From positions 3,286,001 to 3,350,000 of the forward strand of contig NZ_CP028158.1 in the NCBI RefSeq assembly GCF_003030345.1: DNA of 64,000 bases, read 5' to 3'. The notes under the pieces were generated by a model. That model saw only the letters and a program-made list of their open reading frames with translations, made no database searches and was not told the origin of the DNA. A program made the position numbers and the translations under genes. This document shows positions 26,419 to 31,166 of this stretch, in pieces; within the stretch, counting starts at the first letter, position 1; every line of letters begins with the position of its first letter. The DNA is from Plantactinospora sp. BC1. Its GTDB lineage: Bacteria > Actinomycetota > Actinomycetes > Mycobacteriales > Micromonosporaceae.

Positions 26419-27432
26419 TCAGTACGTGTTGTCGGTGGGTGGCGGTTCGGCGCGTACCGTACGGTCCATCCAGCCGTCGCCGTCGTCGTCGTACATCCGC
26501 TTCTCGAAGAAGCCGTCGCGGTTCCGGTCGTACTCGCTGATCTCGACCAGCCCGTCGGCGTCCAGGTCGTGCCCGACGAAGTCGGTACGGCCGTCCCGGT
26601 CGAGGTCGACCAGGATGTCCACCCCACCGTCGGCCCGGCCCAGCAGGGTGTGCCGATCCCAGTCCCCGTCGCCGTCGACGTCGACCCGGGTCCGGTAGCC
26701 CTCCGGTACGGCCGGCTCGGTCCGGGTCTCCGGAGCCGGTCCGGCCGGTCCGAGGCCCACCTCGGCCGGCGGCCCCGACCCGGGGGCGGGACCGAACCCG
26801 GCCTCCGGCGCCGGCCCGAACCCGGCCTCCGCCGGCCCGAACCCGACTCCGGGCGCCGGCCCGAACCCGGTCTCGGCGCCGGCCAGCGCGGCGGCGAGCC
26901 CGTCGTTCGGGTCGGCGAGTGCGCCGGCCAGCCCGCCCAACGGCTGCGCCAGCGCCCCGTCGGTGGCCGCCCCGATCTCCCGGCCGATCTCGTCGCCGAG
27001 CCCGGTCAGCCCACCCACCGGCATGCCGGCGCTTCCCGACCCGGCCGGGGCGGCGCAGCCCGGCGCCTCGGCGAGCGGTGGCACCGCCGCGCCGGGGTCG
27101 GCCGCCGCCCCGAAGCCGTGGGCGAGAGCCGAACCGGCGGTACCGGAGCTTCCGGTCGGTCCGAGGCCGGTGGTGCCGATCTCGCCGACGCCGGGCAACG
27201 CACCGGCCAGCCCGGTGAGCGGGGTGAACATGCCGAACACGCTGGACTGGTTGGCCCGGGTCTCGACGCCGTGCTGCCCGTCGGTGCCGCCACCGATCTG
27301 GAGCTGGAGCAGCGCCAGCTCGTCGGCGTCGAGCCGGTAGCCGGCCAACGCGTCGACCGGATTCGCGGCGAGCGAGGCGGCGAACGCCGGATCGGTGACC
27401 AGCCGTTCCAGTACGTCGTCGAAGTCACTCAC
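26419..27432 (-). CDS. leader-like N-terminal domain protein with C-terminal DxDxDG repeats
   Basis: 337 residues from a GTG after AGGAGG. Residues 1-46 form a short helical domain (VLERLVTDPAFAASLAANP, GYRLDADELALL) of the kind found as leaders in Nif11/NHLP-like peptides and in IniB-like proteins; it ends in GGG at 47-49, like a double-glycine cleavage site. A long Gly/Pro/Ala-rich middle follows, with repeated GFGPAP units. The last ~90 residues hold five Asp-rich loops (VDVDGDGDWD, VDLDRDGRTD, HDLDADGLVE, YDRNRDGFFE, YDDDGDGWMD) typical of extracellular calcium-binding repeats. No Sec or Tat signal is present. It is the last gene of the M50-protease operon and a plausible substrate. Confidence 0.75.
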   Translation of the reverse strand: MSDFDDVLERLVTDPAFAASLAANPVDALAGYRLDADELALLQLQIGGGTDGQHGVETRANQSSVFGMFTPLTGLAGALPGVGEIGTTGLGPTGSSGTAGSALAHGFGAAADPGAAVPPLAEAPGCAAPAGSGSAGMPVGGLTGLGDEIGREIGAATDGALAQPLGGLAGALADPNDGLAAALAGAETGFGPAPGVGFGPAEAGFGPAPEAGFGPAPGSGPPAEVGLGPAGPAPETRTEPAVPEGYRTRVDVDGDGDWDRHTLLGRADGGVDILVDLDRDGRTDFVGHDLDADGLVEISEYDRNRDGFFEKRMYDDDGDGWMDRTVRAEPPPTDNTY

Positions 27433-27462
27433 GGTCGCCTCCTCAGCACGCCGGGCGTTCTC

Positions 27463-27468
27463 AGGCTA
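27463..27468 (-). promoter_or_regulatory. possible -10 box (TAGCCT)
   Basis: TAGCCT on the minus strand lies 30 bases before the GTG of the leader-like gene, suggesting an additional internal promoter in the operon. Confidence 0.35.
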
Positions 27469-27518
27469 GCCGCGTACCGCCACCTGCCGGCATCACCCGG
27501 CCGGCCGGGGACGACCGG

Positions 27519-27740
27519 TCAGTCCAGCTCGGGCATGGGCACCGGCTGCGGCCGGGGCCGGCAGGTGCCGCACTGGAGGGCGTCCTCCACCACCAGTGCC
27601 TCGGCCCGGCCCCGCGCCTCGGAGCGGTGCACCTGCAACAGGTACGGGCCGAACCGGGCATGGTCCTCGCAGACACCACGCCCGCAGAACCGGCACCCGC
27701 CCCGCGCCGCCTTGGGACAGAACCAACAGAGCACTGGCAC
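27519..27740 (-). CDS. small Cys-rich protein, 73 aa
   Basis: Starts three bases after the stop of the large M50-protease gene, so the two are co-transcribed and probably co-translated. The sequence opens with VLCWFCPKAARGGCRFCGRG, then VCEDH, and has a later QCGTCRP pair. Six or seven cysteines plus one histidine give two probable zinc sites. No membrane segment. I do not recognise the family; it may be a small adaptor or chaperone for the operon. Confidence 0.65.
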   Translation of the reverse strand: MPVLCWFCPKAARGGCRFCGRGVCEDHARFGPYLLQVHRSEARGRAEALVVEDALQCGTCRPRPQPVPMPELD

Positions 27741-27743
27741 TCC

Positions 27744-30700
27744 TCACCTGATGGTCACCTGGGTGCAGCCGGCCACGGTGATCGGGCTGCCCTGCACGGT
27801 GGACTCCGCCTTCTGACTGTCCGACGCGGTGACCCAGACGCTGAGGGTGCCGCCCCGGTTGTCCTGCCCCGGATACGGCACCGGACCGATGGTGCCGTGG
27901 TAGGCGCCGTCCGGGGACATCCGGGTCGACCCGCTGGTGAAACCGCTCCAGTGCACGGTGACCACCAGGGACTCGCCGGAGTCCCGGTCGTCCGAGACGT
28001 CGACCACGGCCGCGGTCGTGGTCGGATGATCGGTGCACCCGCCGCTCGCCGTCTGCTGGCTCAGCGTCCCGCCCGGGTCGCGCTGCCAACGGATCACCGG
28101 TGGCCTGTTGGTGGGCGTCGTCGGCGGGGCGGTGGTGGGTGGCGGGGTGGTGCGGGGTGGGGTGCTCGGTGGACCGGTGGTGGTCGGGACGGTCCCCGGC
28201 GTACCGGCGGTCGGGGTCGGAGGGCTACCGGGAGAGCTCGGGGTCGGCCCCGGCGTGCCGGGCGACGCGGTCGGGGACGGCGTCGGCGAGGGAGTCGGTA
28301 GCAGCGGGCCGGGGGTCGTCGACGCCGGGTCGTCCGGGGTACCGGTCGGGGCCGGGCTGCCCTCCGGCGTCGTACCGGCACCGCAGGCCAGCGGCCGACC
28401 CTGCTCCGGCTGGCGTATCCCGGTGACCCGTACCTCGCCGGTGGAGACCTCGATGCCTCTGGTCCAGGCCGCGTACCGGGCCGCACCACGGTTGCCGATC
28501 CCGCCACCGGCCCGGTCCACCAGCAGCGACAGCGGCGCGAAGGCGCTGCTCGGGCTCTCGGTGTCGGCGAGCATCCGGCCGGTGTCCAGGGTCAGCCGGC
28601 CGTGCGGGGTGACCTCGCGCACCCCGTCGCTCCACAGTGGTCCGAGCACCGCCCGGGAGCCGGCGCAGAACACCGTGGTGGCGCCGCCCCGGAAGGTCAG
28701 CAGGGCGCGGGACCGGGCGGAGACCCGGATCTGGTCACCCTCCGAGACGTAGAGCCGGTCGCCCTCGGCCAGCCGTACGCTCCGGCCGTCCACGGTCGCG
28801 TCCACCCGACCGGACTCGGCGGCGAGCAGCGCCCGGTCGCTCGGCATCTCCGCCCAGGCCGGGCCGGGGATCAGGTTGCTCGCCGTGCTGAGCAGGGCGA
28901 GCAGCAGCAGGAGCAGGACCAGCCACCAGAGCTTCCGCTCGAACCGGCGGTCCACGTCGGGATCCGCGTCCGGCGGTGGCGGTCCGGGTGGCGCGGCCAG
29001 CGGCGGATAGCCGCCGTCGGGATGTACGCCGGCCCGGGGCGCGCTGCCCGGTGCGCCGGGATCGGCCGGTGGGGGCGGGGCGCCCGGGGTGCCGAAGAGC
29101 AGCGGCAGGCCGGTGACCGCCGGCAGCGCCCAGACCCGGACCGGGGTACGGGCGGTCGCCACCGTACCCGGCTCGCCCTCCCCGGCAGGGCCGATCATCG
29201 TCCCCCGGCGGAGCTGGGTACCGTCCGGCAACTCGATCACCCCGGACTCCACCACCACCGCGTCGCTCGGCCCGGCGAGGACGATCGGGTCACCGGCGGC
29301 GACCGCCGACACCCGGGCACCGGAGACCAGACCGAGCCGGTCCTCGGGGCTCAGCCCGCGCAGTGCCGGCGCCTCGGCGAAGAGCGCCTCGGCCTCGGCC
29401 CGGTCCGCCGGTGGTGGCCCGGGCAGCGGCCCGACCCCGGTGACCACCGCCGAGGTCGGCAGCCCCAGCAGGAGCGTCCCGGCGGTGTGCCAGTCGAGGG
29501 TCGCCGGAGCCCCGGTGAGCGCGCTCGCCAGCCCGATCACCCCGCCCGGGCCGAGCCGCTGCCGGACCAGGCCGCCCGGGTCGCCGGGCCGCCGGCCCTC
29601 CATCGCACCGTCGACCACCAGGAAGACGGTCGACTGCGCGGCCCCGGCGAAGACCAGTTGCGTTCCGGTACGCGGCCGCACCCAGCGGGCCCGCCCGGCC
29701 AACTCGGCCAGGGTCGTCTCGGGCAGTCGGCCTAGCGGCGAGTTCCGCAGCGCGTCGAGTCGACGGGGCAGGTCGAGCCGGTGCCGCCGCTGCACCCAGT
29801 GGGCGCGTACCCGCCGGACCCGCCGGGCGAGCCAGCCGGCCACCAGGTAGACCAGCGGGGCGGCCAGGCCGGCGATCACGGCCACCAGCAGCAGCCGGGC
29901 CGGCCAGCCGGAGCGCCAGAGTCCGAGTATCAGTCCGGCGACCCGGTCGGTCCAGATCCGCCAGCCGATGTTCACCGCGACGACCACCCAGAGCACGGCC
30001 AGGGTGCCGTACAGGGCGACGATCCGGCCCTCCCGGTCGAGCTGCGCCCAGCTCGGCGGGCGGCGGCGCAGCCGGGCCAGCACGTAGGCCAGTCCCCGGG
30101 CGCGCAGGTTGGGGATCTCCAACCAGTCCATCAGCAGGTAGTAGCCGTCCAGCGCCAGGAACGGGTTGAGGTTGAACAGCGCGTTCAGATACCAGGCGAA
30201 GGCGAGCTTGAACGTCCACGGCGCCGCCTCCGGCACCAGCAGCCCGACGAGCTGGGCGAGCCCGGCCAGGATCAGCCCGGCCGCCGGGCCCGCCGCCGTG
30301 CTGAGCATCCGGGCCCGGCGACCGGCCATCCAGACGTCGGTGGTGTCGACGAAGACCGACGGGATGCCGAAGTAGACCAGGAAACCGGCGGCCGGCACCC
30401 GCCGCCCGGCGTGCTTGGTGGCGAGCGCGTGCCCCAGCTCGTGGCAGGCCAGCGCGAGTACGTTCAACCCGAGCAGTACCGCCGCGCCGGCCGCGTACGA
30501 GCCGTCGGTGAGGAAGAGCGACTGGTCGCCGGCCCACCACGTCCAGCCGAACAGCAGCAGCCCGGCCACCGCCACCGCACCGAGCAGCCCGGCGGCGACC
30601 CGGGTGAAGAGCAACCGGCCACCCGCCCGGTAGGCGAGGTCGACCAACCAGTCCACGTCGGCCACCACCGTGCGCTGGCCTTTCGCGGCGGCGAGCAGCC

Positions 30701-31166
30701 CCCGGCCGAGCCGCAGCGGCCAGGGCCGGCGGTGCACCCGGTCCAGCGGCCGGAACGCGTCGACCGGCAACTCGGCCAGCATCCGGTTGCCGGCCAGGTC
30801 GGCGACGACCCGGGTGACCTGGTCCGGGGCGAGCCGGCCGGCGATCCGGGCGAACTCGGCGACCAGCCGGGCGACGGTACGGGACCCGTCCATCAGCTCG
30901 GCCAGCCGCCACTCCTCGGGGGAGAGCCGCAGATAGCAGGCGTCGCCCCGGGAATCCGGCGAGCGGAGCATCACATAGGAGACCCCGCGCACCGAGACGA
31001 GTTCGGCGCGCTCGATGCCGGGGCGCAGCACCGGGCGGGCCCGCGCCGGGTTCAACCGCTCGACGACGGCTGTCCACAGGCCCGAGTCGGCCGGTCCCAG
31101 TGGCCTGCCCGGAGCACGGCCGGCCAGAGCCTCCCAGACGCTCACCCGGCTCTCGACGACGGCCAC
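27744..31166 (-). CDS. PqqD-like / M50 metalloprotease / cyclic-nucleotide-like / FecR-like membrane protein
   Basis: 1140 residues from the GTG at 31166; a TACTCT -10 box at 31206-31201 rules out longer starts. In order: PqqD-like winged helix (~45-132); membrane block with the M50 zinc motif HELGH (~242-246) and third ligand in NPFLALDGYY (~334-343); further helices to ~480; two cNMP-binding-like beta-rolls in the cytoplasm (~500-720); one helix (LWWLVLLLLLLALLSTASNL); an outside FecR-like domain (VRLAEGDRLYVSEGDQIRVS); a Pro/Thr-rich linker; and a C-terminal beta-sandwich with two cysteines. M50/PqqD proteins occur in peptide maturation and export loci. It leads an operon with a Cys-rich protein and a leader-like protein. 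Substrate unknown. Confidence 0.8.
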   Translation of the reverse strand: MAVVESRVSVWEALAGRAPGRPLGPADSGLWTAVVERLNPARARPVLRPGIERAELVSVRGVSYVMLRSPDSRGDACYLRLSPEEWRLAELMDGSRTVARLVAEFARIAGRLAPDQVTRVVADLAGNRMLAELPVDAFRPLDRVHRRPWPLRLGRGLLAAAKGQRTVVADVDWLVDLAYRAGGRLLFTRVAAGLLGAVAVAGLLLFGWTWWAGDQSLFLTDGSYAAGAAVLLGLNVLALACHELGHALATKHAGRRVPAAGFLVYFGIPSVFVDTTDVWMAGRRARMLSTAAGPAAGLILAGLAQLVGLLVPEAAPWTFKLAFAWYLNALFNLNPFLALDGYYLLMDWLEIPNLRARGLAYVLARLRRRPPSWAQLDREGRIVALYGTLAVLWVVVAVNIGWRIWTDRVAGLILGLWRSGWPARLLLVAVIAGLAAPLVYLVAGWLARRVRRVRAHWVQRRHRLDLPRRLDALRNSPLGRLPETTLAELAGRARWVRPRTGTQLVFAGAAQSTVFLVVDGAMEGRRPGDPGGLVRQRLGPGGVIGLASALTGAPATLDWHTAGTLLLGLPTSAVVTGVGPLPGPPPADRAEAEALFAEAPALRGLSPEDRLGLVSGARVSAVAAGDPIVLAGPSDAVVVESGVIELPDGTQLRRGTMIGPAGEGEPGTVATARTPVRVWALPAVTGLPLLFGTPGAPPPPADPGAPGSAPRAGVHPDGGYPPLAAPPGPPPPDADPDVDRRFERKLWWLVLLLLLLALLSTASNLIPGPAWAEMPSDRALLAAESGRVDATVDGRSVRLAEGDRLYVSEGDQIRVSARSRALLTFRGGATTVFCAGSRAVLGPLWSDGVREVTPHGRLTLDTGRMLADTESPSSAFAPLSLLVDRAGGGIGNRGAARYAAWTRGIEVSTGEVRVTGIRQPEQGRPLACGAGTTPEGSPAPTGTPDDPASTTPGPLLPTPSPTPSPTASPGTPGPTPSSPGSPPTPTAGTPGTVPTTTGPPSTPPRTTPPPTTAPPTTPTNRPPVIRWQRDPGGTLSQQTASGGCTDHPTTTAAVVDVSDDRDSGESLVVTVHWSGFTSGSTRMSPDGAYHGTIGPVPYPGQDNRGGTLSVWVTASDSQKAESTVQGSPITVAGCTQVTIR

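Follow-up and report, generated by a model that had tools for sequence, protein, structure and literature searches.

A conserved three-gene set of Micromonosporaceae with an M50 protease related to RiPP leader proteases and a leader-bearing protein as its candidate substrate

Genes and domains at the locus

We analyzed a stretch of 64,000 nucleotides (hereafter, the window) from Plantactinospora sp. BC1, a member of the Micromonosporaceae whose genome is a single contig of 8.33 Mb; the window covers its positions 3286001 to 3350000. Our subject is a set of three genes on the minus strand, here called A, B and C. Gene A (27744-31166) encodes a protein of 1140 residues, gene B (27519-27740) a Cys-rich protein of 73 residues, and gene C (26419-27432) a protein of 337 residues with an N-terminal leader and calcium-type repeats. 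Three nucleotides separate the stop codon of A from the start of B. An original prediction, made from the DNA letters, had proposed that C is a substrate cut and exported through, or controlled by, the large membrane protease A; the sizes and outer boundaries that it gave agreed with the list of open reading frames (ORFs).

Protein A joins a PqqD-like domain, an M50 core, tandem cyclic-nucleotide-binding (cNMP) folds, a predicted transmembrane helix, outer beta domains and a C-terminal beta domain. In the AlphaFold model (mean predicted local distance difference test score [pLDDT] of 80.2 and predicted template modeling score of 0.64), a three-strand/three-helix unit at residues 52 to 126 is followed by the long helices of the M50 core. 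This core carries both HExxH and NP....DG motifs, in line with the M50 protease foreseen by the original prediction: the HELGH zinc site lies at residues 242 to 246 (30429-30443) and is a conserved H-E-x-x-H in sequences from leader-bearing loci, and NPFLALDG lies at residues 334 to 341 (30144-30167). The PqqD-like domain (residues 46 to 130; 30777-31031), with strands modeled at 52 to 81 and helices at 83 to 126, is a putative leader-binding element. Its label draws on the modeled fold, on a weak match to the ApyI model for binding of ribosomally synthesized and post-translationally modified peptides (RiPPs; E = 0.0013), on the match to a daptide protease model, which begins at residue 73 and thereby reaches into this region (E = 0.022 for the N-terminus alone), and on FHA-type relatives described below, which matched Pfam PqqD slightly below its cut-off (1.6e-4 and 2.7e-4). 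A of the window gave no match to Pfam PqqD.

Judged from profile matches, the closest relatives of A are leader proteases of the kind that combines a RiPP recognition element (RRE) with an M50 core. The NCBIfam daptide leader protease model (NF041824) matched residues 73 to 431 (1.7e-34) with 119.6 bits against a cut-off of 300, and membership of A in the daptide family was rejected on this score. The YydH/LiaK model (NF058609) gave 43.3 bits (3.4e-11) against a cut-off of 225; YydH is presumably the same protein as EpeP. The leader of daptides is removed by MpaP (PMC10036551); for EpeP, both cutting and export of the epipeptide are assumed, and M50 proteases act in pearlin pathways too (PMC10885120). 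MpaP resembles A in having an M50 core with HExxH and NP....DG, probably in having an RRE-type unit before this core, and in having a leader-bearing partner (PMC10036551), whereas A adds tandem cNMP rolls and outer domains and its partner is a 337-residue protein. EpeP is likewise an M50 protease acting on a ribosomal product, but there the substrate is a small peptide (PMC10885120). No daptide biosynthesis genes were spotted in the ORF list between 22000 and 36000, in which the flanks were inspected by eye only.

The two cNMP-fold rolls (residues 494 to 598 and 618 to 681; 29124-29687) bear out another part of the original prediction, which had seen two cyclic-nucleotide-binding-like rolls. 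Foldseek matched them to tandem regulatory domains of PKA and PKG, and they were also matched by a profile that includes relatives with clearer cNMP domains; the single-sequence Pfam match reached 17.8 bits, below the cut-off of 27.5. The phosphate-binding cassette, FGE..L....R.A, is absent from A of the window, as seen by comparison with the relative L146, which retains FGEVALL...ARTATV. A single hydrophobic helix (residues 736 to 763; 28878-28961), probably placed in the membrane, precedes the modeled outer part. Its beta-rich domain (residues 779 to 914; 28425-28832) had been called FecR-like; Pfam and NCBIfam gave no FecR match in A, and the 50 Foldseek matches listed were to kinase regulatory proteins and one antiporter. 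A further modeled beta domain at the C-terminus (residues 1024 to 1131; 27774-28097) lies behind a Pro/Thr-rich stretch and is variable or absent in relatives.

Protein C begins with a leader domain of the Os1348/NHLP clan (residues 1 to 45; 27298-27432). It matched NCBIfam NF038399 (4.2e-9; 36.3 bits, slightly below the cut-off of 40) and Pfam Frankia_peptide (1.4e-4; 22.5 bits; cut-off, 48). Among the models that the original prediction had named for this N-terminus, the RiPP leaders were thus matched, below cut-off, and no match to Nif11 or IniB was listed at E values up to 1. NHLP, Nif11 and Os1348 precursors share with C the long leader domain of this clan; an NHLP leader has Gly-Gly at its end and is associated with an ABC transport system (PMC2887384), whereas C has neither a conserved Gly-Gly nor a short hypervariable Cys/Ser/Thr core.

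Conservation of C runs on past the Gly-Gly spacer to residue 67. Here lies the element VETRANQSSVFG (residues 56 to 67; 27232-27267), and the pattern VExRxx[KQR][SA][SG]x[FMV]G was found at about this position in all 57 leader-bearing C proteins of the survey reported below. An adjoining, mildly hydrophobic stretch (residues 65 to 84; 27181-27240) is a candidate entry and cutting site, and the most hydrophobic 19-mer started no more than 30 residues from the start of the element in 42 of these proteins. The original prediction had placed the cut after GGG at residues 47 to 49. Since GGG is present in 5/57 and GG in 32/57 leader-bearing C, while the element further on is invariant, cleavage after GGG as a conserved site was rejected, and the likely handling site of C is at residues 56 to 84 instead of 47 to 49.

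Toward its C-terminus, C has the five DxDxDG-type repeats that had been reported for it (D-x-[DN]-x-[DN]-G; residues 251 to 320; 26473-26682), starting at residues 251, 276, 289, 302 and 315. They are DUF6802-like (15.6 bits, below the cut-off of 27) and may bind calcium. No toxin domain was matched in C by the Pfam and NCBIfam scans, and no C39-type exporter was found among A, B and C. The leader-bearing C proteins are about 220 to 610 residues long in 56/57 cases; the exception is a 114-residue leader frame without repeats beside B (L064:1253-1594), in a genome that has a full-length C on another contig (L168). In the genome G024, the calcium-type repeats of C had many additional matches (12), spread over several contigs.

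In protein B, eight residues (C5, C8, C16, C19, C24, H27, C57 and C60) are arranged as paired CxxC/CxxH and are all invariant in 42 rows; they are putative zinc ligands. The protein has a PEL(D) tail, and several relatives begin at residue 3. A model of B (pLDDT of 81) gave weak matches in the PDB, the best being the NSD3 C5HCH domain at E = 0.29, and the B profile matched the same domain weakly (E = 0.04). The ratio of nonsynonymous to synonymous substitution rates (dN/dS) of B was 0.00 to 0.12 (six pairs; for this and the ratios below, few pairs were compared by a simple method).

Conservation of the set and joint loss of leader and protease site

A first scan with A yielded 13 loci, overlapping with the later survey, and the nearest named ones came from Plantactinospora. 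In 12/13 loci, A was followed by B and by the C-terminal portion of C, and the leader was present in 10/13; at L010, A stands alone and the same genome has B and C elsewhere. B of the window is 75 to 97% identical to 12 relatives, from which we judge the conservation of the gene set to be far above chance. A profile of B was used to survey 200 Micromonosporaceae genomes and found B in 80 of them. We read 79 stretches, namely, the window and 78 of the 79 others (one at a contig edge was omitted). A match to A lay upstream of B in 78/79 stretches, L095 having no A beside B, and a leader-bearing C followed B in 57/79 and was missing in 22/79. B started at most 60 bases from the stop of A in 73/79 (fragments at contig or stretch edges included); the gap was 310 bases in L116. 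In 50/79, the window included, A had a complete start, B lay no more than 60 bases away and C bore a leader. In L050, L064, L098 and L107, A was truncated at the end of the stretch or contig or was fragmentary, and its frame was interrupted in L053, L070, L078 and L079. Between B and C, we observed a gap of about 2.2 kb in L074 and of -1 to 171 bases in the other leader-bearing stretches. Strong leader matches (at least 94 bits) occurred at 61 places in 59 genomes, every one of which bears B; among the other 21/80 B-bearing genomes, A is damaged in 20, and the last is G005, which is 69% complete. This neighborhood comparison confirmed that the three genes form a real and conserved set, which supports the original prediction.

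We then compared the presence of the leader with the state of the M50 site on a tree of 77 A sequences, from which the active-site columns had been removed. L050, L095 and L098 (a fragment or no A) were left out; L098, from a 69%-complete genome in which A is fragmentary and C lacks a recognizable leader, was counted as leaderless and omitted from the coupling count. L064 was kept and coded as not intact at HExxH, which is unreadable there. H-E-x-x-H and NP were intact in 54/54 leader-bearing rows with a readable motif, L064 being the 55th. The 20 leaderless rows formed one clade (support, 99), all with a damaged M50 site: N334 was replaced by S in 20/20, a change found in no leader-bearing row, His242 was gone in 9/20 and His246 in 6/20, and at least one of these His residues was gone in 11/20. 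Beside B, 5/20 of these rows had a readable C frame without the leader and 15/20 had none. Moreover, 19/20 genomes with a damaged site had zero leader matches, and the other (G142) had a partial match of 23 bits. Two rows with an intact site and no local C, L089 and L010, had a leader-bearing C at another place in their genomes. On the tree, the leader changed three times and the site twice; the extra changes stem from L089, L010 and L064, so that in substance there was one co-loss.

The decay was strongest in the M50 domain. Five changes of His242 fell inside the leaderless clade (branch length, 3.79) and none outside it (11.49). Columns that were conserved in the other leader-bearing rows had changed at fractions of 0.29 and 0.19 in two leaderless subgroups within M50, compared to 0.011 in the leader-bearing sister group. 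For A, dN/dS was 0.27 to 0.45 in leaderless rows versus 0.14 to 0.29 in leader-bearing rows. These comparisons support a joint retention or loss of the leader and the protease site, which is the best evidence for C as a substrate of A. The substrate relation of the original prediction is to this extent supported; its cut after GGG is not.

A second arrangement of leader and protease was observed away from the main locus, where the leader profile matched other proteins more weakly, in 20 stretches chosen by us as a subset of such matches. A PqqD-M50 protease (HESAH or HELTH) lay beside the leader protein in 7/11 stretches with an R-x-S-K motif and in 0/9 stretches without it (Fisher p = 0.005, to be taken as a guide only, since the stretches are mutually related and the motif pattern was composed after viewing the sequences). 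The seven stretches are L161, L163, L167, L176, L177, L180 and L181, of which L176 and L177 come from another family. Their proteases have a Cys-rich start followed by FHA, PqqD-like and M50 domains, the latter two slightly below the Pfam cut-offs in the two proteins scanned, and the leader-bearing neighbors have about 260 to 700 residues and are Pro- or Gly-rich by sight. Some of these cargos end in a glycine-zipper-like tail, and the L161 cargo has calcium-type repeats (both by sight). A further leader protein with an RTSKAG element (L166:1919-2560) has a PGDNMI repeat as its cargo and comes from the same genome as the A-B-C locus L094.

Several observations weigh against C as the substrate of A. 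The co-loss is a single event on the tree, so that no significance test is possible, and a sign test on independent pairs has only 3 pairs and no power. Random pairs of conserved columns equaled the change count of His242 and His246 in 1235/20000 draws, and pairs from outside M50 did so in 1077/20000. The hydrophobic stretch of C is weak, with 19-mer means of 0.35 to 1.61; a usual membrane helix is more hydrophobic. Four of the 11 motif-bearing stretches (L160, L162, L166 and L168) show no PqqD-M50 protease in the DNA examined; their genomes have an M50 partner elsewhere (L089, L161, L094/L167 and a partial one in L064). In five rows, C has kept a readable frame despite lacking the leader, with a dN/dS of 0.37 to 0.76 (three pairs) versus 0.15 to 0.43 in leader-bearing C (three pairs), so that part of C may work without the leader. 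Finally, conserved columns of the PqqD-like domain changed at fractions of just 0.05 and 0.06 in the leaderless subgroups versus 0.024 in the sister group, and the first cNMP domain is also still constrained. Since the PqqD-like domain stayed conserved after loss of the leader while M50 relaxed, it must have another job too, and since A and B persist in 15/20 leaderless rows with no adjacent C, these two proteins have another function. That A and B outlive leader and catalytic site is the strongest problem for the proposal; in the extra role, the PqqD-like domain perhaps binds a ligand or partner.

This persistence, the continued constraint on the PqqD-like and first cNMP domains and the singularity of the co-loss are what one would expect if A and B were a membrane complex with a task of its own and C a mere passenger, leader loss and M50 decay having coincided by chance in one lineage. 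We hold such a coincidence to be improbable, given that the same leader and motif recur in another genus, in G027 and in another family, next to a PqqD-M50 protease that differs from A, and that a leader-bearing C is present in the genome even where it is unlinked from A. A different relation is conceivable in which C serves signaling at the membrane: the leader would park C on A, a regulated M50 cut would free a cytoplasmic messenger or calcium-responsive core, and the outer domains would sense the surface. The chain of A, which joins cNMP-fold rolls to a beta domain beyond the lone helix, would suit this, as would the five readable leaderless frames and, in the second arrangement, a Ser/Thr-kinase-like gene that follows at L163 and whose tail region is rich in Pro and Ser (by sight). 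We nevertheless regard signaling as rather unlikely: DxDxDG repeats are usually extracellular, the cNMP cassette is degenerate in A of the window, and leaderless C is relaxed and missing beside B in most leaderless rows.

Relatives of A and B in other genomic settings

B was found more widely than the A-B-C set: it accompanies A-like M50 proteins elsewhere as well as PrsW-type proteases. A search of 394 genomes of the class gave 14 matches to B, the window included. In four of these stretches (L146, L147, L149 and L150), B follows an A-like protein; L146 also holds a Crp-type gene. L150:1801-7243 is a candidate RiPP cluster, to which L149 is similar, with an MNIO enzyme (2.3e-54), an Os1348 precursor (63.7 bits, above cut-off) whose tail bears CSC, an ATP-grasp peptide maturase (4.3e-49, below its cut-off), the A-like protein and B. 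The A-like protein of L150 is a fusion of M50, cNMP and AhpC parts and did not match Pfam PqqD. We count this cluster, as a third setting besides the two arrangements above, in favor of C as a substrate of A. Besides A-like protein and B, short ORFs with M[ST]DKKITP and Arg-rich tails lie at L146:4633-4917 and L147:7146-7780 and are candidate peptide precursors. TIGR03896, the family of cNMP proteins of bacteriocin transport, was matched below cut-off by the A-like relatives of L146, L147 and L150, which likewise have tandem cNMP domains and occur in the setting of RiPPs, whereas A of the window had no match to it.

The presence of an A-like protein and B within a clear RiPP cluster, together with the NHLP leader of C and the tandem linker repeats seen in several C proteins, raises the question of whether C is itself a RiPP precursor, with Gly/Phe-rich linker repeats as modified cores and the calcium repeats as carrier. 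We consider this highly improbable. The Gly/Pro-rich linker is unconserved whereas the repeats are conserved, Cys is absent from 47/57 leader-bearing C, and no modification enzyme was found among A, B and C in the Pfam and NCBIfam scans, the flanks having been inspected by eye only.

In the remaining nine stretches (L148 and L151 to L158), B is flanked by a PrsW-type protease on one side and by a small winged-helix-like protein on the other (9/9). The PrsW assignment comes from a Pfam scan of L148 only (2.2e-23), and the helix-turn-helix matches of the small protein were weak. At the end of this small protein stands a conserved segment, R..PGG[LMV][WF]..L. An R-x-x-x-[SAG]-[SG]-x-[FW] element is found near its C-terminus and, in C, after the leader, a likeness noted by eye with no test against chance. 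By this comparison, B accompanies intramembrane proteases of two families.

As for the surroundings and origin of the set, A, B and C had zero matches to PHROGs and PADLOC, and a phage or defense origin was dropped on these grounds. tblastn at 1e-5 gave zero matches to B on plasmids. A scan for sigma-70 promoters found nothing; such a scan is uninformative in actinobacteria. A dedicated exporter near the operon was rejected: the ABC ATPase of the window matched 42/62 downstream flanks, where the matches may be to any ABC ATPase, and its glycosyltransferase matched 6/72 upstream flanks.

A proposed route for protein C

Taken together, these data lead us to propose, with fair though not strong confidence, that A, which would have its origin among the RRE-M50 proteases of RiPP pathways, is an intramembrane metalloprotease guided by a leader, and that C is its protein-sized substrate; of the parts of this proposal, the relation of C to A as substrate is the one we regard as likely. 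C would be made in the cytoplasm with its NHLP-type helical leader, which would dock at the cytoplasmic side of A on the PqqD-like domain, probably aided by the putative zinc protein B; we give such participation of B in substrate handling an even chance. The VExR..K/Q-S/A-S-x-FG element and the following hydrophobic stretch would enter the M50 site, where C would be cut. The freed part, a disordered Gly/Pro-rich linker with five calcium-type repeats, would leave the membrane. Its release would most likely be outward, to the surface where the outer domains of A are expected to lie, although export of C as such is a tentative assignment to which we give slightly less than an even chance.

No paper on the A-B-C set was recognized in the open-access literature, in which subscription journals are mostly absent, and this agrees with the claim of the original prediction that no described system has these three genes; PMC12419801, in its available part, is not about the set. 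The nearest precedent for a protease as a passage is PrsW, an intramembrane peptidase proposed as both conduit and processor of toxins (PMC3482391). The likeness extends to the PrsW-type genes that adjoin B in nine stretches, whereas PrsW has another protease fold, its peptidase is fused to the toxin (PMC3482391), and C has no toxin domain match. More broadly, A, B and C could represent a route of protein secretion or surface display that arose from RiPP leader processing, with the protease as cutter and conduit and B as a shared zinc adaptor feeding M50 and PrsW proteases, an extension that we put forward as a doubtful one.

The usual view of RiPP leaders and RRE proteases is that they serve small peptides; should C be cut by A, proteins of about 220 to 610 residues would be handled likewise, and the set thus suggests an adaptation of peptide-processing machinery to whole proteins. 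Long proteins with leader-like domains, which are filed in databases as RiPP precursors, would then have in A a partner that can be tested, and the small, near-invariant B may offer an entry point to the substrate supply of intramembrane proteases in two families. If A indeed cuts C, M50 proteases would become a candidate route of protein release in actinobacteria.

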